A stretch of 64,000 bases of DNA from Cohaesibacter gelatinilyticus (GTDB lineage Bacteria > Pseudomonadota > Alphaproteobacteria > Rhizobiales > Cohaesibacteraceae). Under the pieces are notes generated by a model. That model was not told where the DNA came from, ran no database searches, and saw only the letters and a program-made list of their open reading frames with translations. Location of the stretch: the NCBI RefSeq assembly GCF_900215605.1, contig NZ_OBEL01000002.1, positions 620,001 through 684,000 of the forward strand, read 5' to 3'. Made by a program: the position numbers and the translations under genes. This document shows, piece by piece, positions 6,636 through 17,287 of this stretch (the first letter of the stretch is position 1; every line of letters begins with the position of its first letter).

Positions 6636-6687
6636 GCTCAAATCATGTCGCGATTCTCTGCCTCACATTTCCAATCGACATGATAGC

Positions 6688-6721
6688 TGGCATCTGCAGA
6701 AAGTGATTTTCGCAGATGCCA
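6688..6721. terminator. Stem-loop between convergent clpP and thiolase genes
   Basis: Inverted repeat TGGCATCTGC (6688-6697) and GCAGATGCCA (6712-6721) with a 14-nt loop. A second repeat, ATCATGTCG (6642-6650) and CGACATGAT (6676-6684), lies just before it. There is no long T-run, so efficiency as an intrinsic terminator is uncertain, but the position between two converging genes fits a bidirectional terminator. Confidence 0.5.
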
Positions 6722-6774
6722 AATTGTCACCGTCTCAGTTCAATAACACTCTGATTGAACTCTATTCGATGGGA

Positions 6775-7959
6775 TCAGGCAACTTCAAACAACGCTGCGG
6801 CCCCCATGCCTCCGCCAACACACATGGAGGTCACTACGTATTTTACGCCACGACGCCTCCCCTCAAGCAGAGCGTGCCCGACTTGTCTCGCACCTGTCAT
6901 GCCGTAGGGGTGGCCAATCGATATCGCACCGCCGTTCACGTTGTAGATTTTGGGATCGATCCCAAGATGATCGCGGCAATAGAGAACCTGGCAGGCAAAG
7001 GCTTCGTTAAGCTCCCAAAGTCCGATGTCTTCGATGCGAAGACCTGCATTCTTCAGCAGCTTTGGAATTGCAAAGATCGGGCCGACCCCCATCTCTTCCG
7101 GTGCATTCCCGGCAACTGCCATGCCGCGATAAATACCCAGCGGAGTGAGGCCCTGTTGCTCTGCCATTTTGCCTTCCATAAGCACACAAGCCGAGGCCCC
7201 GTCAGAAAGTTGGCTGGCGTTTCCGGCGGTGATCACGCCTCCATCAACAACCGGTTTCAACTGACCAAGTGTTTCTGCCGTCGTCCCTGGCCGGTTGCCT
7301 TCGTCTTTCGACAAGGTCACCTCTTCCAGAGTTTCCTCCCCGGTTCCGCGGTTTTTGACCCGCTTAATCGCAGAGATTGGAACGATCTCGTCATCAAAGG
7401 CGCCAGCGGCCTGCGCCCGAGCCGTCCGACCTTGGGAGAGTGCAGCATATTCATCTTGGGCGTCACGACTGATCCCATAGGTTCGGGCTACATTTTCCGC
7501 CGTCATCAGCATCGGCATATAGGCATGCTCGGATTGGGCGACAACATCTGGATCTTTTTCATCGCCCGCCCATTTCAGATATGAATTCTGAACGGCGGAA
7601 ATGTTTTCCTGTCCGCCTGCAACGGCAACGTTCTGACCATCCAGAATAACCTGCTTTGCAGCAGTCGCAATGGCCATCAATCCGGAGGAACATTGCCTGT
7701 CAATCGTCTGTCCCGCCACCGTATTGGGCAGGCCGGCTGCCAGTGCAGATAACCGGCCAACATTCAGACCTCCTGTTCCAGCAGTCAAGGCTGATCCGAT
7801 GACAACATCTTCGATTAACCCGGGGTCCACGCCTGCACGTTTAACCGCGTGCTGAATGGCGTGCCCCATCATGATCGGTGACTTGATGTTGTTTAGCGCG
7901 CCTTTGAAGGCAACCCCAATAGGGGTTCGGGCGGTTGAAACAATAACGGCTTCTCTCAT
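6775..7959 (-). CDS. Thiolase (acetyl-CoA C-acyltransferase), FadA-like
   Basis: Cytoplasmic thiolase of 394 residues that should cleave a 3-oxoacyl-CoA with CoA to acetyl-CoA and a shortened acyl-CoA. The nucleophile is Cys90 in TIDRQCSSGLMAIA; His350 lies in GGAISIGHPYGMTG and Cys380 in SMCVGGGMGAA. The N-terminus EAVIVSTARTPIG is family standard. Its start overlaps the end of the FadB-like gene by 4 bp (ATGA), so the two are coupled as in fadBA operons, here in the order B then A. It is last in an operon that also encodes a CoA ligase and a DMSP-lyase-like cupin, so the substrate may be an osmolyte derivative rather than a plain fatty acid (inference). Confidence 0.9.
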   Translation of the reverse strand: MREAVIVSTARTPIGVAFKGALNNIKSPIMMGHAIQHAVKRAGVDPGLIEDVVIGSALTAGTGGLNVGRLSALAAGLPNTVAGQTIDRQCSSGLMAIATAAKQVILDGQNVAVAGGQENISAVQNSYLKWAGDEKDPDVVAQSEHAYMPMLMTAENVARTYGISRDAQDEYAALSQGRTARAQAAGAFDDEIVPISAIKRVKNRGTGEETLEEVTLSKDEGNRPGTTAETLGQLKPVVDGGVITAGNASQLSDGASACVLMEGKMAEQQGLTPLGIYRGMAVAGNAPEEMGVGPIFAIPKLLKNAGLRIEDIGLWELNEAFACQVLYCRDHLGIDPKIYNVNGGAISIGHPYGMTGARQVGHALLEGRRRGVKYVVTSMCVGGGMGAAALFEVA

Positions 7960-10076
7960 GATTTTTCCTTTTTGGCATCAAAATGCGTGGCAAGTGTCAC
8001 GCCCGAGGTTGCGAGTTCTTCCAGCAAAGGTGCAGGCGTGAACCACATCTCGCCATAAGCGCCAAGCGACTGTCGATAGTGGGTCATGCGCTCCAGAATC
8101 TGGCTTAATCCAATCTCGTCGGCATAGTGCATCGGGCCGCCGCGCCAGTTTGGGAAACCATAGCCATTAACCCAGATCAGGTCGCAATCACCCGGGCGCG
8201 TTGCGATGCCCTCTTCAAGGATCAGAAAACCCTCGTTGATCAGGGGGAACAGACATCGTTCAAGGATTTCCTGATCGTCGATGTCCCTGCGCTTAACACC
8301 ATGCAGGTCCGCCAAATGGTCGCTGATTTGAACAACCTCGGGATCTTCAACTCGTGTTCGGCCGTCGTAGACATAGCTTCCTTGCCCGGTTTTCTGTCCC
8401 AATCGGCCCAGCTCAAACAGTTTGTCCTGCACAGCTTGATAAGTCGGATCATGTGCTATTTCACTTCGCCGCTCCTGACGCACGCGTGCCCCCACATCGA
8501 CTCCGGCCAGATCCGCCATCGCGTGAATACCCATGGCCATGCCGAATGTCTCAAGGACATCATCGACCTGTTTGGGTGTTGCCCCTTCAAGAAGCAGACG
8601 AGATCCTTCGCGAAAGTATGGCTCCAGCATCCGGTTTCCGACAAAGCCGTAGCACACACCAACCGTAACAGGGATCTTCCGGAGCTTCTTTGCGACCGTG
8701 ATTGCCGTTGCAATGACATCTGGAGCGGTCTTGGCGCCGCGCACTACCTCCAGCAAGCGCATGACATTGGCCGGGCTGAAGAAATGGAGACCAATCACAT
8801 CCTCCGGGCGGGACGTGACCGTGGCAATTTCATCAAGATCCAACGTCGATGTGTTTGAGGCCAGTATCGCGCCAGGTTTTGCGTGCAGGTCTAACGCTTC
8901 GAAAATCTGGTGTTTAACATTCATGCTTTCAAATGCAGCTTCAATGATCAGGTCAGCCTTCGCAAGATCTGCATAGCTGAGCGTTCCGGTGACATTGGCG
9001 GCGATTACCTCTGCCCGATCGGCACTGAGCCGCCCTTTTTGAGCCGCACGTTGGAAATGCTCCCGGACCTTTTCCAGCCCCTGTTCGAGCGCACCTTGCG
9101 TAGTTTCAAGAAGCGTGACCGAATACCCCGCCTGCAGAAAGGCAATAGCAATGCCCCGCCCCATTGTTCCGGCACCAATCACGGCAACCGATGAAATGTC
9201 ACGTGGCTGGTCAGCACGGGTAACGCCGGGAACCTTGGTGCATTCACGCTCTGCAAAGAACAGATGCCGCCCCGCGCGCGATTGAGGTGTGTCGAGCAGT
9301 TCAGCGAAACCTGCCTTCTCTTGTGCCAACCCCTCCGCAAGCGGCAAGTTGCATGCGGCCTCGATGGATACCAGACATCGTTCAGGGGCGACAAGGTTCT
9401 TGGACTTTGGTGCTATCCGGTCCCGGAAACCCGCAAGAAAACCCTTTGGATCAAGGTGTGTGACAGTTATATTGGCACAACTGCGTTTCGGATCGCCCTC
9501 ATGGCTGACACGGATGGCAAAACCCAAAACATGCGCGCGAAAATCCTGGTCATTTTCAAACAGTGCATCAACCAACCCACAAGACAGGGCATATTCGCCT
9601 TTCACGGGATCTCCCGACAGGATCATCTGCGTTGCCGCTTCCAGCCCAGCAATCCGGGGTAGTCGCTGGGTGCCGCCAGCACCGGGCAGCAGTCCCAGTT
9701 TGATCTCTGGTAGGCCCATCACGGCATCCGGAGTCGCGACACGGTAATCACAGGCAAGCGCAATCTCCAGCGCGCCCCCCATCGCGGGGCCTGCTATCGC
9801 TGCGATAACCGGCTTCTTGCTGTTTTCAATCGTGACACACAGGTCCGGCAGGTCGGGCTTGTCCCAAACTGCCCCGGTGCGGAACTCAACAATATCAGCG
9901 CCGCCACAAAAGAGCGGCAGGGCCGAACACAGAATGATGGCTTTGACCTGATCATCAGATTCCAGGTCGTGAATGGCTGAAGAAAGTACCTGTCGCATCT
10001 TGAGGCCAAGGGCGTTCACCGGTGGGGCATTCAGCTCAATGAAAGCGACATTCTCGGTGTGTTTAATGGAAATCAT
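7956..10076 (-). CDS. Bifunctional enoyl-CoA hydratase / 3-hydroxyacyl-CoA dehydrogenase, FadB/FadJ-like
   Basis: Two-domain beta-oxidation enzyme of about 706 residues. Residues 1-190 are a crotonase fold: PPVNALGLKMRQVL, CGGADIVEF, GPAMGGALEIALACDYRVA and LPEIKLGLLPGAGGTQRLPR. The NAD-binding domain begins near 290 with VAVIGAGTMGRGIAIAFLQAG, followed by SNTSTLDLDEIA and the catalytic-histidine motif GLHFFSPANVMRLLEVVRG. The C-terminal domains include GVCYGFVGNRMLEPYFREG. I choose ATG 10076 with TTGAGG 8 bp upstream; an in-frame TTG at 10091 would overlap that site. It hydrates a 2-enoyl-CoA and oxidises the 3-hydroxyacyl-CoA with NAD+. It lies 11 bp after the cupin gene and overlaps the thiolase. 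Confidence 0.9.
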   Translation of the reverse strand: MISIKHTENVAFIELNAPPVNALGLKMRQVLSSAIHDLESDDQVKAIILCSALPLFCGGADIVEFRTGAVWDKPDLPDLCVTIENSKKPVIAAIAGPAMGGALEIALACDYRVATPDAVMGLPEIKLGLLPGAGGTQRLPRIAGLEAATQMILSGDPVKGEYALSCGLVDALFENDQDFRAHVLGFAIRVSHEGDPKRSCANITVTHLDPKGFLAGFRDRIAPKSKNLVAPERCLVSIEAACNLPLAEGLAQEKAGFAELLDTPQSRAGRHLFFAERECTKVPGVTRADQPRDISSVAVIGAGTMGRGIAIAFLQAGYSVTLLETTQGALEQGLEKVREHFQRAAQKGRLSADRAEVIAANVTGTLSYADLAKADLIIEAAFESMNVKHQIFEALDLHAKPGAILASNTSTLDLDEIATVTSRPEDVIGLHFFSPANVMRLLEVVRGAKTAPDVIATAITVAKKLRKIPVTVGVCYGFVGNRMLEPYFREGSRLLLEGATPKQVDDVLETFGMAMGIHAMADLAGVDVGARVRQERRSEIAHDPTYQAVQDKLFELGRLGQKTGQGSYVYDGRTRVEDPEVVQISDHLADLHGVKRRDIDDQEILERCLFPLINEGFLILEEGIATRPGDCDLIWVNGYGFPNWRGGPMHYADEIGLSQILERMTHYRQSLGAYGEMWFTPAPLLEELATSGVTLATHFDAKKEKS

Positions 10077-10087
10077 GTTTGGAAACC

Positions 10088-10774
10088 TCAATTAGGCTGT
10101 TTAGCAAGATCCTGTTCGACCTCGGCCCAGTCGTCGAAATGGATTACATTGCAGGGTGAATGCACGTTCTCGAGCCAGACAAAGACCGAGATGAACGGCT
10201 GGTCATAGACACGAGTGGCATGAGGTTCGCCTGCGGCGTTCCAGATCAGTGATCCAGCCGGAAAATCCTGCCAATCGCGGGTGCCAAACCGCCAACCCGA
10301 TTTTTCGGACAGGTTCAGATAAAGCTCTGGCGCGTCGTGGTTGTGGTCCCGATACAACGTCCGCGGCCCCAGCATGAAAATACCAAGGCTGAAATCGGGA
10401 TGGTAATGCCCACATGCGCCCGGCCCAATCAGCAGAGTATGCAGGTTGCACTTTGCGTATCCCTCCCCCAAATTGGCACCGGGTGGATAGAATTGGGCAT
10501 TGTCTTCGCACCAGACCAGATCATCTTTGGCCGCTTTTAGACAACCAGCAATTTCGTGCAATTCAGGATCAGAAATTCCGGCGATGGCGTTCTTTAGAAT
10601 TTCATCATGCCGGGTTCCTTGGGGAGGTATATCAAGGAGCCTCTCGTCGGACAGATCCATGGCTGCCAGCTTGCCCAACGTCAGATCAACGCCAGCCGTA
10701 GCAGTTCTGTGAGACTGTAGATAAGTGATAATGGAATGGGTAAGCGCCTGAATACGACGTTGCTTGTCTGTCAT
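10088..10774 (-). CDS. Cupin of the DMSP-lyase-like (cupin-DLL) superfamily
   Basis: 228-residue protein with an alpha-helical N-terminal half and a C-terminal cupin barrel. Candidate metal ligands are His144, His146 and Glu150 in YRDHNHDAPELYLNLS and His185 in GEPHATRV; Tyr152 is placed as the catalytic base is in DddK/DddW-type lyases (His-x-His-x3-Glu-x-Tyr, then His about 35 residues later, as I recall those enzymes). A second HxH (His123, His125 in GHYHPDF) precedes it. Such enzymes split dimethylsulfoniopropionate into DMS and acrylate, but many relatives have other or unknown substrates. It overlaps the CoA ligase stop by ATGA and sits in one operon with FadB-like and thiolase genes. 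The DMSP-lyase family assignment is fairly strong; the substrate is open. Confidence 0.7.
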   Translation of the reverse strand: MTDKQRRIQALTHSIITYLQSHRTATAGVDLTLGKLAAMDLSDERLLDIPPQGTRHDEILKNAIAGISDPELHEIAGCLKAAKDDLVWCEDNAQFYPPGANLGEGYAKCNLHTLLIGPGACGHYHPDFSLGIFMLGPRTLYRDHNHDAPELYLNLSEKSGWRFGTRDWQDFPAGSLIWNAAGEPHATRVYDQPFISVFVWLENVHSPCNVIHFDDWAEVEQDLAKQPN

Positions 10775-12375
10775 GATTTCAAGTCCGCGCGTGTTGAAAC
10801 CTCTTGCCGCACAAGCTTCTTATCAAGCTTGCCGACACTGGTTTTAGGAAGGCGGGGAACAAAAATTATATCGTCTGGAACTGCCCACTTCGAAAGCTCA
10901 CCAGCATCAACACTCGACTGGATTGCCTCCATGACACTCATACGGACAAGATCCAGATCGGCATCCTTTAAAAGCCGAGCCACCAACACCGGCCTTTCAC
11001 CCCATTTTTCGTGCGGCAGCCCAATCGCGGCGACTTCTTCGATGCCACTACATGACGATGCAATATTTTCCAATGCCAGCGAGGAAATCCATTCGCCGCC
11101 GGTCTTGATTACATCCTTGAGGCGGTCAGTGATCTGCAGCGATCCATCCTCGCGGATATAGCCAACATCCCCGGTGTGAAGATACCCACCGGCCCAGAGC
11201 TCATTCGAGGCTTGTAGGTTATCCAGATACCCTTGTGTCAACCAGGGAGCCCGCACAACAACTTCACCGGTTGTCTCACCATCATGTGGGACATCCTTCA
11301 TATCCGGCGTCACAACACGGAGGTCCACAAGCGGGCCGGGAAAGCCGGTTTGCGACTGTACGTCCGGATCATTGCTGGATAAATCTGCCACTGTCAGAAA
11401 TGGGCAGGTTTCAGACATCCCATATGCAGCATGCAAGGATATACCAGCCGCTGCCGTGCGATCCAGTAGACCACGTGGCAAAGCGGCCCCACCGATTATA
11501 ACCTTCCAACAGCTTAGATCTATTTGCGAACAGTCGGGATGGTCGAGCACCATTGACAGAACCGTGGGCACGCAATGGGAAAAAGTGACGCCTTCTTGGG
11601 CAATCAGTTGCAAGATTATGTCAGGCGCATATCGGCCGGGATAAACCTGACGCAGCCCTAGCAACGTTGCGGCATATGGAAATCCCCAGCCGTGGACGTG
11701 AAACAAGGGCGTCAGCGGCATGTAAACGTCACCACGATGAAATCCGGCATTCCCGGGCCGCCCACCAAAACCAGCGAGCAGACCCAATGTGTGAAGTACC
11801 AATTGCCGATGTGAATAGCTCACTCCTTTAGGACTTCCGGTGGTCCCGGTCGTATAAAATAGTGTGGCGGTTTGGTTCTCATCGAAGTCCGGGAAGTCAA
11901 AACTGGTTGGAGCCTCGCCTATCCACTCTTCATATCCATCACCGTCTCCAATTGGCACGATGACAATGTCCCGACTGAAGCCAGACTTGATATCATCAAT
12001 GATCGGAATGAAATCGCGGTGCACGATGATCAGGTCCGACTTCCCATGGTTGATCGTATAAAGAATCTGCGCAGGAGATAAACGCACATTGATTGTGAAA
12101 AGGGTCGCCCCCATCATCGGAACTGCAAAAAAACATTCCAGATAGCGATGCGTATCCCAATCCATGACACCGACGCGCATGCCCTCACATATCCCACTTG
12201 CCTTTAGAGCATTGGCAAGTTGGCATATGCGTTTGCCCAAGTCCGCATAACTCAGCCGCATATCGGCACCGCTGACAATCTCTTGGCAGGCGGACGCAAT
12301 ATTCGATCTGGTCAACAAGTGTTTGATCAGCAATGGATAGCCATATGCATTTGGTGAGGATGATAATGGTGACAT
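10771..12375 (-). CDS. AMP-dependent acyl-CoA synthetase, medium-chain/DmdB-like
   Basis: Adenylate-forming CoA ligase of 534 residues. The ATP-binding P-loop is LFYTTGTTGSPKGVSYSH (residues 172-189); AAYGMSETCPFLTVADL is the A5 motif, YLHTGDVGYIREDG the A7 motif, ITDRLKDVIKTGGEWIS the A8 hinge, and Lys516 in SVGKLDKK the catalytic A10 lysine. Length and motif spelling match medium-chain acyl-CoA or methylmercaptopropionate-CoA (DmdB) ligases. It is the first gene of the operon and would activate the acid handled by the downstream cupin, FadB-like and thiolase enzymes. It diverges from the LysR gene at 12613. Its natural acid substrate is unknown. Confidence 0.87.
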   Translation of the reverse strand: MSPLSSSPNAYGYPLLIKHLLTRSNIASACQEIVSGADMRLSYADLGKRICQLANALKASGICEGMRVGVMDWDTHRYLECFFAVPMMGATLFTINVRLSPAQILYTINHGKSDLIIVHRDFIPIIDDIKSGFSRDIVIVPIGDGDGYEEWIGEAPTSFDFPDFDENQTATLFYTTGTTGSPKGVSYSHRQLVLHTLGLLAGFGGRPGNAGFHRGDVYMPLTPLFHVHGWGFPYAATLLGLRQVYPGRYAPDIILQLIAQEGVTFSHCVPTVLSMVLDHPDCSQIDLSCWKVIIGGAALPRGLLDRTAAAGISLHAAYGMSETCPFLTVADLSSNDPDVQSQTGFPGPLVDLRVVTPDMKDVPHDGETTGEVVVRAPWLTQGYLDNLQASNELWAGGYLHTGDVGYIREDGSLQITDRLKDVIKTGGEWISSLALENIASSCSGIEEVAAIGLPHEKWGERPVLVARLLKDADLDLVRMSVMEAIQSSVDAGELSKWAVPDDIIFVPRLPKTSVGKLDKKLVRQEVSTRADLKS

Positions 12376-12612
12376 GAAGGTTGTATCCTTGAGCTTCTTT
12401 AGCCGTTAATTTGGCACTTCTCACCCGGTTGAAGAATTGAAAGAAATTTCCTTTCATCAAGGTTTTCTAACCAATCACACCGCAGTTCGATTTGCGCGTG
12501 ATCCCTTGAAAAGTTATAAGAAAGAGCATGACAACACTGCTAGCATCCTGTCTGCAGTCGGTTAACTCTGCTCAGGGATAAGTAGATTTTGTGTCATCAA
12601 GGAGATATTGCA

Positions 12613-13536
12613 ATGACCTCTCATATGCCCACACTGGTTTCACTGCGTGCTTTTGAGGCGGTGGCGCGTCACAAGAGTTTCCGAAAGGCAGCTGACGAGA
12701 TTTGTGTGACGCATGCGGCAATCAGCCACCAGGTCAAGGCACTGGAAACTTCAATCGGCGTCAAGCTATTGGAACGCACAAGCCGCTGGGTAGAACTGAC
12801 ACCAGCTGGGGAGCAATATTACCCGCCGATCCGTGAACACCTTCAAGGTATCATTAAAGCCACAAGGCGCATCCAGACCCCTGAGGAACCAGACGTGTTG
12901 CTCGTTCAGTCTTATGCAAGTTTCAACACAATGTGGCTTCAGCCCAGATTGGCTGAATTTCTTCAGGACAATCCGGACACGCGTGTGCGCATAGTCTCTA
13001 CCTTTGAAGACGGTGACTACGATATGCACCGGTTCGATGTCGGCGTGTTTAACGCGCCACCGTTTGATAAGAGATTTGACTATAGCCCTTTGTTCGAAAC
13101 AGATATCTACCCGGTGTGCGCTCCGGAGGCCTTAAATTCTGCAAGCGGCGGGATACCGCTGAAAGAGCTAAAAAATTTCTTGCTGCTGAGTGTTCCAAGC
13201 ACATGGAATGAGCCGGATGACTGGAATTGTTGGTTGGATGCGGTGGGCTTGGATCGCCAAACCATGAAATTCGGTTCGATATTCGACAATTATCCACTTG
13301 TTCGGGAAGCTGTTCTGAACAATCACGGCATCAGCGTCGCAAGGGCACCATTTTGCGCACGTGATCTTGAAAGAGGGCGGCTGGTCAGACCGTTCGATAT
13401 TTCGGTACCGGAACCAGGCCGCTGGTATCTGGCGACGCAAAAAGAGCGTGCACCCAACCCAAAGCTCGATACATTTATCGACTGGCTATTCGAACAGATC
13501 GAGACCGACCCGACCATGCGATTATTTCGAGCCTGA
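12613..13536 (+). CDS. LysR family regulator, GcvA-like
   Basis: LysR-type transcription factor of 307 residues. The N-terminal HTH reads LRAFEAVARHKSFRKAADEI, CVTHAAISHQVKALETSIG and KLLERTSR; the effector domain begins near 90 with VQSYASFNTMWLQPRLAEF, as in GcvA-like proteins. Start chosen at ATG 12613 because AAGGAG lies 8 bp upstream; the longer frame from TTG 12589 would run through that site. It is divergent from the CoA ligase operon and convergent with the betaine transporter operon, so it is the natural candidate to control both. The inducer could be the osmolyte or a breakdown product. Confidence 0.87.
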   Translation: MTSHMPTLVSLRAFEAVARHKSFRKAADEICVTHAAISHQVKALETSIGVKLLERTSRWVELTPAGEQYYPPIREHLQGIIKATRRIQTPEEPDVLLVQSYASFNTMWLQPRLAEFLQDNPDTRVRIVSTFEDGDYDMHRFDVGVFNAPPFDKRFDYSPLFETDIYPVCAPEALNSASGGIPLKELKNFLLLSVPSTWNEPDDWNCWLDAVGLDRQTMKFGSIFDNYPLVREAVLNNHGISVARAPFCARDLERGRLVRPFDISVPEPGRWYLATQKERAPNPKLDTFIDWLFEQIETDPTMRLFRA

Positions 13537-13569
13537 TCTGATGAATTCCAGCTCTGCCGTCAGCTCACA

Positions 13570-14628
13570 TCAGGACTGACGCGCACCGGCCTCGGATGCG
13601 ACGCGAGGCACAAGAGCGCGCACCAGTTCCGTCATATCCAAGGTGCCGACCGTTTGCTCCCCATCCTTTACGATATAAGCGTGTGACGTATCCCCGCCAG
13701 ACCGCGAGATCATGCTTTCGAGCGTGTCGTTCACGTCCACTTCGCCGTGGGCATCTTTTGGCACTTTACCACCGCCAAGCGGGGTCATGATCGAACGAAC
13801 CTTCAGAACCCGTGCACGATTGATATCACTCACGAAGTCTTCGATGTAAGGATCGTTGGGGTTCAGCAGGATATGCTGCGGCTCGCCTTGTTGTACTACG
13901 AAGCCATCCTTCAGGATTACAAGATGATCAGCCAACTTCAACGCCTCATCGAGATCATGAGTGATGAATATTATGGTCTTATGCAGCTCTTTTTGCAACT
14001 CCAGCAGCAGATCCTGCATATCAGTCCGGATCAATGGATCAAGCGCCGAGAAAGCCTCATCCATCAGCATGATCGGTGTGTTTGCGGTCAGCGCTCGGGC
14101 AATGCCCACTCGCTGTTGCATGCCCCCGGAAAGCTGCGCTGGATAATGGTTTTCAAAGCCACTCAGCCCCACACGATCCAACCACCTGGCAGCCTCCTTA
14201 TCGCAATCTGTTTCGGACACACCGCGCACGGACAGAGGCATTCCTGCATTCTTCAACACAGTCTGGTGTGGCAAAAGCGCAAATTTCTGGAACACCATCG
14301 ACATCTTTTCCTGACGGGCATGACGCAGCCCGTCTTCAGACAGACCTGTCACGTCCTCACCTTGCACGATTATTTCACCCGCAGTGGGTTCAATCAATCT
14401 GTTCAGGTGGCGGATGAGCGTGGACTTACCCGAACCGGACAGCCCCATGACCACTGTGATTTCTCCCGCCTGCATATCGACGTTAATGTTGTTAAGACCA
14501 AGCACGTGCCCGTGCCGTGTCAACAACTCCTCTTTACCCATGCCATCCCGAACATGGTGTAACACGTCCTTATTGCGGGCACCAAAAATCTTGTAGAGGC
14601 CGCGAAGGCTGACCATTGGTTGTGTCAT
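13570..14628 (-). CDS. Quaternary-amine ABC transporter ATP-binding protein, ProV/OpuAA-like
   Basis: 352-residue ATPase of a glycine-betaine-class importer. Walker A GLSGSGKST (62-70), signature LSGGMQQRV (166-174), Walker B LMDEA (188-192), and the D-loop SALDPLIR. The N-terminal extension FGARNKDVLHHVRDG and the insertion MVFQKFALLPHQTVLKN are typical of ProV/OpuAA. The C-terminus carries a single CBS-like region (MISRSGGDTSHAYIVKD, TVGTLDMTELV), which in relatives senses ionic strength or cyclic-di-AMP. It is the last gene of the binding protein, permease, ATPase operon. The substrate may be glycine betaine, DMSP, carnitine or a relative. Confidence 0.9.
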   Translation of the reverse strand: MTQPMVSLRGLYKIFGARNKDVLHHVRDGMGKEELLTRHGHVLGLNNINVDMQAGEITVVMGLSGSGKSTLIRHLNRLIEPTAGEIIVQGEDVTGLSEDGLRHARQEKMSMVFQKFALLPHQTVLKNAGMPLSVRGVSETDCDKEAARWLDRVGLSGFENHYPAQLSGGMQQRVGIARALTANTPIMLMDEAFSALDPLIRTDMQDLLLELQKELHKTIIFITHDLDEALKLADHLVILKDGFVVQQGEPQHILLNPNDPYIEDFVSDINRARVLKVRSIMTPLGGGKVPKDAHGEVDVNDTLESMISRSGGDTSHAYIVKDGEQTVGTLDMTELVRALVPRVASEAGARQS

Positions 14629-14640
14629 CGAGCCTGCTCC

Positions 14641-15669
14641 TTAATGTTTGACTTGGGTTTTATCGGCCCGTGTGAGAGCTGCTTTGGATACGCGATCAAG
14701 AATCACTGCCAGCAGCACGATACCCATGCCAGCGACGATGCCCACGCCCAACTCAAGGTTTCGAATGCCGCGTAACACGTTCACACCCAAACCTGGTGCC
14801 GATACCAGAGAAGCAATCACGACCATGGCAAGACTCATCATGATGGTCTGATTGATCCCGGCCATGATATTGGGCAGGGCCAAAGGGAGTTGTACTCGTA
14901 TTAGTTTCTGGCGATCATTCATACCAAAGGCATCGGCCGCCTCGATCACGTCTCGGTCTACAAGACGGATGCCCAGATCGGTCAGACGGATCACCGGTAC
15001 GATCGCGTAAAGAATGATAGCGATCCCATAAAGTTTGGATTCCGTGACCGAGAACAAGAAAATCAGAGGGATCAGATACACGAAGGTTGGCAAGGTCTGC
15101 AGCAGATCAAGTATTGGCACAACGCTTTTTTGTAATCGGTCAGATTTCGACATGGCAATTCCAATGGGCACGCCCAAAAGCACCGATATCGTCGTACAGA
15201 CAAAGATGATCGACAGGGTTTGCATCGCCACATCATAGTGGTCTACGACGGCCAGTAGCATAATAGAGGCGGCCACCAAGATCGTCACAGGGCGCGAACG
15301 CGACGCGTACCAGGAAATAATCACCAGAAAGGGGACCATGATGAACCACGGCGTCGCTTCAAACAGCCAAAGTGCGCCATCCAACATCCAGCTCAGTGGT
15401 TGTGTGATCGGGTCCAGAACAGTTTTCAGGACCGGTTTGGCTGCAAGAAACCCGTCTTCGATCCCGTTGGTTACATCGCGCGACTGCCATATGCGGTTGC
15501 AACTTTCATGAAGATTGTCAAATGAGGGAATTGGCAATAGTCGCCCAGAGGCCTCTTCTCCTCCTGCCTGCGCCGCAAGGTCCGCCAGCGAAAGCGGCGC
15601 TTTGTCGTCTGACGTGCCACACCATTCGCTCAAACCCAATGCGCTGAATAACTTGTCATAGAAGGCCAT
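14641..15669 (-). CDS. Quaternary-amine ABC transporter permease, ProW-like
   Basis: Inner-membrane permease of 342 residues. A long soluble N-terminus (residues 1-105) contains an amphipathic region, then about six to seven membrane segments from WFIMVPFLVIISWYAS onward. The BPD_transp_1 coupling motif is ADAFGMNDRQKLIRVQLPLA, the EAA loop that contacts the ATPase, with PNIMAGINQTIMMSLAMVVI after it. It is separated from the ATPase gene by 12 bp and from the binding-protein gene by 67 bp containing a stem-loop. Together these three genes form a complete importer. Confidence 0.9.
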   Translation of the reverse strand: MAFYDKLFSALGLSEWCGTSDDKAPLSLADLAAQAGGEEASGRLLPIPSFDNLHESCNRIWQSRDVTNGIEDGFLAAKPVLKTVLDPITQPLSWMLDGALWLFEATPWFIMVPFLVIISWYASRSRPVTILVAASIMLLAVVDHYDVAMQTLSIIFVCTTISVLLGVPIGIAMSKSDRLQKSVVPILDLLQTLPTFVYLIPLIFLFSVTESKLYGIAIILYAIVPVIRLTDLGIRLVDRDVIEAADAFGMNDRQKLIRVQLPLALPNIMAGINQTIMMSLAMVVIASLVSAPGLGVNVLRGIRNLELGVGIVAGMGIVLLAVILDRVSKAALTRADKTQVKH

Positions 15670-15701
15670 TTATCCCACTTTCCAATCTGTTTCAGTGCGT
15701 T

Positions 15702-15725
15702 AGGGGCATCGCTGAGGATGCCCCT
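15702..15725. promoter_or_regulatory. Intercistronic stem-loop after the binding-protein gene
   Basis: Perfect 9-bp arms AGGGGCATC (15702-15710) and GATGCCCCT (15717-15725) with a 6-nt loop, located between the stop of the binding protein and the start of the permease. Hairpins in this position commonly stabilise the binding-protein mRNA or cause partial termination so that more receptor than permease is made. No T-run follows. Confidence 0.55.
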
Positions 15726-15736
15726 GTCTATGCAGT

Positions 15737-16708
15737 TTACTGCAGCAATGCGGAAAGTTTGTTGCGCGCAGCATCGTTAAGCCACGCCCCCCAAACATCC
15801 TTGTAGGTTGTTAGGAAATGCACCGCGCCTTCATCGTAGGAGGCATTGTTGTCTTCAACCCATGCCAACGTTTCGCCCATCTGTGCGTTGGTGAAGGACA
15901 GATTTGTCATCAGGTCAGAGATTTCTGCGTTTTCAGCCATGAATTCCTTGGAAAGAACTGTAACCACTTCACTACGAGGGAAGGCGCTCATTGCTGGTGT
16001 CTCGCATTCCGCTGTGATGTTGCAGGCATGCTTTTCAGGGTCATGGGGGCCCATATCGACCAGGGTCATCGGGTATTTGCCCAGTACCGATGTCGGTGCC
16101 CAATAAAAGCCGAACCACGGTTCTTTGTTTTCGTAGGCGGCAGCGATCGAAGCCGCAAGGGTTTCGCCTGATCCATGCACGAAGTTTTCAATGCCTGCAT
16201 CAATCAGCCCGCCTGCCTTCATCAGGTTGGTGCTGACATTTAGACAGGTCCATCCCTCGGGGCAGTTGTGAAAGCGATTTCCGACGAGTTCGGGGTTGGC
16301 TGCGATGCCTTCAATTGTTGCCAGTTCCGGATGCTCCTCAACAAGGTAGTTCGGAACAAAGAACCCTTCAACACCGCCATCTGATAGAACTTCGGTCACA
16401 GGAATTATTGCACCTGAATCAACCAGCCCTTGGTAAGCCGGCGCGCCGTTTGTCCAAATTTCAGTCAGAATGTCGGGCTCTCCGGTCTCGGATACGGATG
16501 CCAGCGCAGGGTTGCCCGAGAGCGGCATTGCGGTGACCTCGCACCCATACCCTTTCTCCATCAGGAACTTCGCAACCGCGGTGACGATCTGCGCAGACCC
16601 CCAATCACCTTGCATGATGGACACTTCACCACATTCATTTGCCCGGGCTGCCGAGGTAGTGATTATCGCAGCAAGCACAAATCCAAGAACCGTTGAAACC
16701 TTGAACAT
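15737..16708 (-). CDS. Glycine-betaine/proline-type ABC transporter substrate-binding protein, ProX/OpuAC-like
   Basis: Periplasmic receptor of 323 residues. Residues 1-23 form a signal peptide (MFKVSTVLGFVLAAIITTSA, cleaved after ARA); the mature protein starts NECGEVSIMQGDWGSAQI and contains conserved tryptophans (GDWGSA, EIWTNGAP, GWTCLN, EPWFGFYWAPT) that in this family form the aromatic cage for a trimethylammonium or dimethylsulfonium head group. I start at ATG 16708 with AGGAGG upstream, not at the longer in-frame 16801. It is the first gene of the transporter operon. Four cysteines (CGEV, GYGC, HNCPEGWTCLN) may form disulphides. Exact ligand undetermined. Confidence 0.88.
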   Translation of the reverse strand: MFKVSTVLGFVLAAIITTSAARANECGEVSIMQGDWGSAQIVTAVAKFLMEKGYGCEVTAMPLSGNPALASVSETGEPDILTEIWTNGAPAYQGLVDSGAIIPVTEVLSDGGVEGFFVPNYLVEEHPELATIEGIAANPELVGNRFHNCPEGWTCLNVSTNLMKAGGLIDAGIENFVHGSGETLAASIAAAYENKEPWFGFYWAPTSVLGKYPMTLVDMGPHDPEKHACNITAECETPAMSAFPRSEVVTVLSKEFMAENAEISDLMTNLSFTNAQMGETLAWVEDNNASYDEGAVHFLTTYKDVWGAWLNDAARNKLSALLQ

Positions 16709-17287
16709 TTCTTTCCTCCTTGTTATTGGCGAAACAGGGACGGAGAAACGCTCCAGGCCAGAATTCGCCTTGTTTATAGCGACAATTAGTATCGGCAGCA
16801 CTATGAGTAAAGAACTGAAAAGAATTTTGGATCATATACAAATGATTACAGATGGAGAGTTGAGACCAAGCGTGAACCCAGTGTTGTGAAATTGAAATAG
16901 ATATCATTTATCCAGCTGGTATGTTTGCCTGGTTAAATTCCCAAAACCAGACCAGACCATGTCTCGATGAATCGCATTAACCTCGAATGATCTAATTATT
17001 TGCCAACCATCCTTTTGAATCTGAAGTTCGTTCGGTGCTCGCAGCTCTATGTGACGAACTTTAGATTCGGGTGACTAGAGCGCGTTCTGCGAAAAGTTGC
17101 AGACTTTTCGGATAGGAACTCGCTTAGACGATAGAGCGCGTTCACCTGACCGACAATTGCGGGCAGGCACTCTCATCAGAAATTCAAGATATCCATTGAC
17201 TTCTATAGCCAGGAACAGTGATTGTTCGACATGTTGCAGGCACATAATAAGTGCATATGCCTGTGTCTTTCCCAGAGGAGATTTCCG
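16709..17287. other. Intergenic region of 579 bp, no gene recognised
   Basis: This gap separates the divergent betaine transporter operon and the LysE-like gene. Apart from repeat A2 (17077-17125) and a short echo of its first half (AGAGCGCGTTC at 17133) I see no supported coding frame, RNA gene or clear operator. Promoters for both flanking units must lie here. Confidence 0.6.
17077..17125. repeat. RIME-like palindromic intergenic repeat, copy A2
   Basis: Nearly identical to copy A1: AGAGCGCGTTCTGCG, then AAAAGTTGCAGACTTTTCGG, then ATAGGAACTCGCTT. It differs from A1 at one base (AGGAAC for AAGAAC). Confidence 0.75.

Follow-up and report, generated by a model that had tools for sequence, protein, structure and literature searches.

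Why a cupin that resembles the lyases of dimethylsulfoniopropionate (DMSP) should be encoded together with a coenzyme A (CoA) ligase, a FadB-like enzyme, a thiolase and a betaine-type importer is not self-evident. Such an arrangement occurs in a stretch of 64,000 nucleotides from Cohaesibacter gelatinilyticus (contig NZ_OBEL01000002.1, positions 620,001 to 684,000), hereafter the window, for which a preliminary description had proposed the use of an onium osmolyte other than plain DMSP by way of CoA steps. That general idea stands. The genes make up a real, conserved and transferable catabolic cassette with a cupin of the DMSP lyase and lyase-like (DLL) superfamily, and they are probably co-regulated. 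As to its purpose, we tentatively favor, at somewhat less than even confidence, a horizontally moving cassette for the catabolism of an onium carboxylate, in which the cupin would act first, on a beta-onium acid of at least four carbons. No description of such a cassette or of its substrates was found in the literature searched by titles and abstract openings, a scope outside which most subscription papers fall.

Is the arrangement more than a local coincidence? The ligase, cupin, FadB-like, thiolase, LysR and ProXWV genes that the preliminary description had placed between positions 6775 and 16708 are all there, eight in number, and are confirmed by Pfam matches (Table 1). Their conserved linkage, whose absence would have told against that description, is likewise found, and across genera. 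We compared 49 cupin loci from one scan of GTDB genomes with a cupin alignment; the scan used two peptide patterns and under-samples distant relatives, and a gene was scored as present at a locus on a tblastn match (E 1e-20, at least 55% identity), which is not a checked full-length frame. Cupin identity is at least 50% in 43 of these loci, among which a LysR gene is present in 29 and a ligase gene in 28. The ligase, cupin, FadB-like and thiolase genes occur together in 23 of the 49 loci, with one more, L061, cut by a contig end, and the same eight genes, LysR and ProXWV included, appear in identical order in 16. The co-occurrence of the four genes in 23 loci is therefore not due to chance. 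The four-gene block occurs, among other hosts, in Aliiroseovarius, Ruegeria, Shimia, Boseongicola, Roseovarius, Leisingera, Pseudophaeobacter and in a metagenome-assembled genome (MAG) of Cocleimonas; it is also carried by two Leisingera plasmids and, in Phaeobacter inhibens P72, by a conjugative plasmid.

Residues C90, H350 and C380 of the thiolase are invariant in 26 of 26 aligned orthologues, as are E109, E129, H436 and E448 of the FadB-like protein in 27 of 27. We take these residues to be the catalytic ones of their families, and from their invariance all pathway steps seem to be in use. The nearest paralogues of the ligase outside the cassette are only 32-38% identical in the eight genomes searched. 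Paralogous thiolases in three genomes (G211, G206 and G203) gave no clear link to the cassette, and a FadB/thiolase pair at L238 looked like a separate operon.

The block probably reached the window genome by horizontal transfer. When the window was compared with eleven loci at the DNA level (blastn), positions 6666-16871 aligned with 86.9-87.7% identity over 10.1-10.2 kb to seven roseobacter loci (L042, L045, L046, L051-L053 and L056), with 87.3% identity to the P. inhibens plasmid locus (L154) and with 74% identity to L060, while L062 and L071 aligned in part only. The flanks of the block gave no alignment to the loci compared, and the cupin was absent from all 17 same-genus genomes searched; it is the end-to-end identity, the unaligned flanks and this absence that lead us to the transfer reading. 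Presence among roseobacters is itself patchy, a cupin of at least 58% identity being found in 6 of 394 genomes of the Ruegeria family. The window genome and genome G057 belong to the same taxonomic order, the G057 contig being the exact reverse complement of a contig of MAG OFTM207 (called Hyphomicrobiales). Base composition is not distinctive (G+C of 0.52-0.54 inside the cassette versus 0.52-0.53 outside), so that DNA identity, sharp edges and patchy presence carry the case for transfer. Roseobacters would be the most likely donors. Just beyond the right edge of the cassette (17078-17146) there are two copies of the short sequence GAGCGCGTTC, spaced by about 57 bp, possibly a small dispersed repeat.

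Table 1. Features of the cassette in the window (positions in the window; strand; supporting match or observation).
Feature	Position	Strand	Basis
Thiolase (acetyl-CoA C-acyltransferase type)	6775..7959	-	PF00108/PF02803; TIGR01930 over cut-off
FadB-like enoyl-CoA hydratase / 3-hydroxyacyl-CoA dehydrogenase	7956..10091	-	ECH_1, 3HCDH_N, 3HCDH
DLL cupin, proposed onium lyase	10088..10774	-	Pfam DMSP_lyase PF16867
Acyl-CoA ligase (AMP-forming)	10771..12375	-	AMP-binding; NF004837 544.7 bits, over cut-off 476
Shared regulatory element TTCTTTCAATTCTTC	12431..12445	-	55 bp upstream of ligase start; phylogenetic footprint, scan
LysR-type regulator (GcvA-like)	12589..13536	+	HTH_1, LysR_substrate; PRK11139 251.7 bits, under cut-off 288
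ABC transporter ATPase (ProV-like)	13570..14628	-	ABC_tran; TIGR01186 331.7 bits, over cut-off 326.6
ABC transporter permease (ProW-like)	14641..15669	-	PF00528 (BPD_transp_1)
Substrate-binding protein (ProX-like), DmpX relative, Phe at position 200	15737..16708	-	OpuAC
Shared regulatory element TTCTTTTCAGTTCTTT	16809..16824	-	100 bp upstream of proX ATG; footprint, scan
Whole transferable cassette, 10.2 kb	6666..16871	.	end-to-end blastn homology to roseobacter and plasmid loci

Within the cassette, each adjacent pair among the thiolase, FadB-like, cupin and ligase genes overlaps by 4 bp, and the LysR gene diverges from this operon. An internal ATG near 12613 would yield a LysR protein of 307 residues, the form annotated in P. 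inhibens. The proX start is set at an ATG behind AGGAGG, matching the end at 16708; the longest open reading frame (ORF) extends to 16801. A different setting is found at L074, from an uncultured gammaproteobacterium, and similarly at L072 and L073, where a ligase and cupin pair lies beside a TRAP-TAXI-type binding protein, a DUF2889 protein and a nitronate monooxygenase-like protein, in a neighborhood with a different set of FadB, thiolase and acyl-CoA dehydrogenase (ACAD) genes.

The intergenic regions suggest that operon and importer form one regulon. A footprint of aligned intergenic regions revealed a conserved element before the ligase gene and a similar one before proX, and the 52 kb of the window outside the cassette hold one match, at two mismatches. 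Roseovarius and Leisingera have an unrelated SBP_bac_5 protein in place of the importer, and a like element still precedes its gene: it was found in all five loci tested (L043, L049, L062, L155 and L156), as well as in L063 and L064 in a separate scan, and the window and L062 share a promoter segment of 75 bp at 76% identity. Thus, a different importer gene seems to have been brought under the same control. The element was defined from ProXWV cassettes, which leaves the SBP_bac_5 loci as its sole independent test. In control scans, matches occurred in 9 of 4000 block-shuffled intergenic sequences and in 48 of 2595 pieces of 300 bp from L042-L088, cassette sites included; the cassettes of L068 and L071 showed no such element pair in the scan. 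The LysR protein would be the candidate to bind the shared element (TTCTTTYCARTTCTTY) and so to control both importer and operon. The SBP_bac_5 substitutes were also considered as a clue to the ligand and set aside, as their relatives in the PDB bind many things and point to nothing specific.

What kind of enzyme is the cupin? It belongs to the wider DLL superfamily, both by PF16867 (80.3 bits against a curated cut-off of 27; the sole match at E 0.001 in the genome) and by fold, and does not fall among the non-DLL cupins, an outcome that would have told against the preliminary description. All six DddQ residues compared, its metal ligands and catalytic tyrosines (Y120, H123, H125, E129, Y131 and H163), are kept, as Y141, H144, H146, E150, Y152 and H185. 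However, it does not group with the characterized DddQ: identity to DddQ is 15-17% over the structural alignment, the gene context is different, and RpDddQ (5cu1), RlDddQ (4la2) and RnDddQII (4b29) form a clade of their own (support 0.995) without the window cupin. The clade of the window cupin carries its own signature, LYRDHxHxAPExY (with RDH..AP), N110, H112 and W161-R162, at which the three DddQ differ, having F/Y and C/Y/W in place of N110 and H112. The tree was built over 118 columns from 77 sequences, after 122 had been reduced to 83 by dropping those with identical last 150 residues and six more (L022, L027, L115, L191, L192 and L113) had been removed as fragments or over-long frames; printed nodes around the window cupin have support of 0.91, 0.79, 0.26, 0.38 and 0.90. 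Its only named references are the three DddQ segments from the PDB, and DddK and DddY were compared with the cupin by fold only.

Several known systems are instructive. DLL cupins of unknown function were reportedly described by Lei et al. in 2018, and DddU, a cupin lyase from marine bacteria (Amylibacter), is said to have been described by Wang et al. in 2023. The window cupin is of the same superfamily as the former by PF16867 and fold, yet its company, an importer, a regulator and three more genes of catabolism, narrows the range of functions open to it. The dddW lyase gene lies, as in the window, under a divergent LysR regulator, whereas no ligase, FadB or thiolase is mentioned with it in the accessible part of that report (PMC4437653).

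Relatives of the cupin occur in varied company. At five loci (L062:6162-7163, L069:3748-4776, L076:3363-4412, L079:10724-11725 and L085:8946-9986) an FA_hydroxylase (sterol desaturase)-type membrane protein with an N-terminal NW/YHPDLP-like motif lies beside the cupin, overlapping its start in L085, and has several roseobacter paralogues. This hydroxylase (PF04116, tested for L062 and L085), adjacent to the cupin in Leisingera among others, was rejected as a pathway step, given the several paralogues per roseobacter genome and the distant match only (E 2e-5) in the window genome. In single-amplified or metagenome-assembled contigs of Rhodobacteraceae (L065:7460-10702 and L067:7456-10687), the genes for a class III aminotransferase and for a 359-residue protein without Pfam match precede that of the cupin, with a PhyH-type oxygenase and a ProXWV importer further on in L065. 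A more distant cupin (39%, L088) has two Rieske oxygenases as neighbors, for which glycine betaine monooxygenase is the best curated model, with a score under its cut-off. A close DddQ relative in Ruegeria sp. A3M17 (L240:3270-14295; 69% to the RlDddQ segment) is surrounded by an RpiR regulator, a Rieske oxygenase, a DAO-GCV_T protein, a Zn-dehydrogenase, enolase-superfamily proteins and a class III aminotransferase, with related gene sets in L241-L244; these surroundings resemble an N-onium betaine cluster, and this DddQ may have a main substrate other than DMSP. Judging from L088 and L240, the neighborhood of some DLL cupins is thus of a betaine type.

The binding protein offers a second view of the substrate. 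Its best solved relative is RnDmpX (7yle; 387.7 bits), to which the window protein is 56% and the cassette-linked set 53-56% identical. RnDmpX is described as DMSP-specific, with eight pocket residues, and its Tyr200 as hydrogen-bonded to the sulfonium sulfur; a Y200F change abolished DMSP binding, and dmpXWV is reported not to be colocalized with known DMSP catabolic genes, in the portion of the report available to us (PMC10030565). In all 22 cassette-linked binding proteins, the window protein included, W35, W84, W152, W202 and Glu113 are kept, but position 200 is Phe rather than Tyr; in addition, Ala153 is replaced by T (20) or V (2), and T64 is S (18), G (2) or T (2). Tyr200 is kept in eight of nine other relatives, which are 24-60% identical. 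The proteins compared include that of L139 and two distant ones (24% identity). Since a trimethylammonium nitrogen cannot accept a hydrogen bond, the loss of Tyr200 hints that the ligand of the cassette may be a nitrogen compound.

In what order would the enzymes act? The preliminary description had the ligase, dehydrogenase and thiolase act before the cupin, an order that fits poorly with loci where a cupin persists without the other three genes. L077 has a ProX-like protein with F200, a LysR gene and the cupin, and L079 an SBP_bac_5 protein, a LysR gene and the cupin, both without a (cassette-like) ligase, FadB or thiolase gene nearby in readable flanks; the same holds for L076 and L078, with a short flank on one side. 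Lone cupins occur in planktonic Rhodobacteraceae (L059 and L066 with readable flanks, L058 and L075 with a short flank on one side), and in a Planktomarina MAG (L069:4865-5071) a ligase-like remnant of 69 residues (54% identity) stands just before the cupin, which suggests loss of the ligase with retention of the cupin. Such loci favor a cupin whose substrate is the imported acid itself, the remaining enzymes then dealing with what it releases. Nor does a cupin in last place sit well with the cupin lyases already known, whose substrate is the free acid.

From gene content and these analogies we infer an order of steps, a class of substrate and a leaving group. ProX, as a DmpX relative with a changed pocket, would capture the compound, and ProWV would import it. 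By analogy to DddQ and DddW, the cupin would act first on the free acid, with the metal held by H146, E150 and H185 fixing the carboxylate and Y152 or Y141 taking the alpha proton, upon which the beta onium group (trimethylamine or dimethyl sulfide [DMS]) would leave to give a 2-alkenoate. The ligase would then convert the 2-alkenoate into an enoyl-CoA, which the FadB-like enzyme would hydrate and oxidize as the 3-hydroxyacyl-CoA, and the thiolase would split the product. Elimination itself creates the double bond, so no acyl-CoA dehydrogenase is needed, and a thiolase downstream of that double bond implies a substrate of at least four carbons; from a C4 acid, for example, crotonate would lead via acetoacetyl-CoA to two acetyl-CoA. 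A more specific and rather unlikely version names 3-dimethylsulfoniobutyrate or 3-trimethylammoniobutyrate as the substrate, with the cupin yielding crotonate plus DMS or trimethylamine and the ligase, FadB-like enzyme and thiolase yielding two acetyl-CoA. With this C4 homologue of DMSP every gene would be used and none would be missing. A dimethylsulfoniobutyrate has been tentatively identified in a diatom, the accessible text giving no position for the sulfonium (PMC5063337); it would fit if the sulfonium were at C3. Betaine-lipid head groups were also considered as substrates and discarded on our own reasoning: elimination is plausible, but nothing would be left for the thiolase to split.

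Several points weigh against the cupin-first route. Cupins are capable of other chemistry. The functions missing near the minimal cupin units may be encoded elsewhere in those genomes, and in L077 a weak hydratase-like (FadB-like) ORF, 29% identical over 180 residues, lies 8.7 kb away. The 22 linked binding proteins are closely related, so that Phe200 represents one conserved change in few events rather than 22, and in L065 a stretch of 4.5 kb that holds other genes separates a cupin of the clade from a Y200-type importer. Finally, we found no proven natural beta-onium acid of at least four carbons, the diatom dimethylsulfoniobutyrate being only tentatively identified (PMC5063337).

A further point against this route comes from an ACAD-like gene that its first cycle would not need. 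The window holds no acyl-CoA dehydrogenase gene, as the preliminary description had stated, and this had been read as fitting a substrate already hydroxylated at C3. However, in 11 of the 49 homologous loci the block extends beyond the thiolase to take in an AraC gene and an ACAD-like gene (e.g. L046:14129-16653), most of these longer cassettes ending at the same base, L046:16653; in the window, L042, L044, L053 and the P. inhibens plasmid the block stops before the AraC gene. The window genome has a 71% identical ACAD-like gene on another contig. The local absence, true as it is, can therefore not support a 3-hydroxylated substrate. It is possible that the ACAD-like protein is not an ordinary dehydrogenase, for it carries IVDGT where YEGT is usual in ACADs, with Asp in place of the usual catalytic Glu. 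Among curated models it comes nearest to acryloyl-CoA reductase (224 bits against a cut-off of 640) and to a sulfinopropanoyl-CoA desulfinase (175 bits against 600).

It is conceivable that the cassette simply serves DMSP or dimethylsulfoxonium propionate (DMSOP), with an ordinary lyase, possibly DddU, whose acrylate would pass through acryloyl-CoA to 3-hydroxypropionyl-CoA while the thiolase serves another substrate. The DLL fold and catalytic residues of the cupin, a binding protein closest to a DMSP-specific one, the annotation of the P. inhibens and Leisingera cupin genes as dimethylsulfoniopropionate lyase (family) and the cleavage of DMSOP by cupin lyases that others have tested, as far as the accessible report goes (PMC10686828), all lend this explanation substance. 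Nevertheless, we regard it as unlikely, since Tyr200 is replaced by Phe throughout the linked binding proteins, the cupin lies outside the DddQ clade, and a C3 acyl-CoA is no normal thiolase substrate, yet a thiolase with its active site kept travels with the block in 23 of 49 loci. On this last point the preliminary description, which had held the thiolase to argue against plain C3 DMSP, is supported. Its own proposal, put in general form, has a C5 3-hydroxy omega-onium acid such as gonyol being activated and then oxidized at C3, after which thiolysis yields acetyl-CoA and DMSP-CoA (or beta-alanine betaine-CoA), with the cupin removing the onium group last. This scheme has a place for every enzyme, the altered binding pocket permits another ligand, and four bacteria are reported to consume gonyol by a breakdown pathway given as unknown in the part of the report consulted, where no DMS from gonyol is recorded for the authors' strains (PMC7221440). 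Beyond that lack of DMS, it is at odds with the loci that keep a cupin without the other three genes close by, it requires either a cupin that accepts a CoA ester or a thioesterase, which the cassette does not encode, to free the acid, and its missing-dehydrogenase argument is local to the window. The scheme is thus one of several readings, improbable and not the best supported.

A gamma-onium or carnitine-like substrate appears doubtful at best. Here 4-trimethylammoniobutyrate, 4-dimethylsulfoniobutyrate or carnitine would be activated and thiolysed to betainyl-CoA (or dimethylsulfonioacetyl-CoA) and acetyl-CoA, with the ACAD-like enzyme of the longer cassettes making the double bond and the cupin performing an accessory step. 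The betaine type of the importer and the ACAD-like genes, in the eleven loci and elsewhere in the window genome, would suit it. On the other hand, it gives no role to a cupin that persists where ligase, FadB and thiolase genes do not (a pattern that is partly by design, as loci were found by their cupin), and the IVDGT motif casts doubt on the dehydrogenase that it calls for. Hardly more probable is a cupin that performs an oxidation or isomerization, like other cupins, instead of a beta-elimination. The signature peculiar to its clade, where the three DddQ differ, would be in keeping with another reaction, and a cupin dioxygenase acting on cysteine is known from the accessible text of one report (PMC6331615), but the six of six DddQ residues tied to DMSP cleavage are retained. 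A cupin that eliminates a beta onium group from the free acid before the CoA steps therefore stays our tentative choice.

Whatever the substrate, one DLL subfamily is accompanied by an importer, a regulator and a downstream pathway of its own, which allows its substrate to be sought directly. The movement of the cassette between marine bacteria, on plasmids among other routes, means that the trait can turn up beyond the roseobacters, the window being a case in point. If the substrate is indeed a sulfonium or ammonium osmolyte other than DMSP, the cassette would be an added source of DMS or methylamine that gene surveys could either miss or count as DMSP cleavage. If it is the C4 homologue of DMSP, the cassette would represent a novel pathway for onium compounds in the sea and, on mobile DNA, a novel source of either DMS or trimethylamine.

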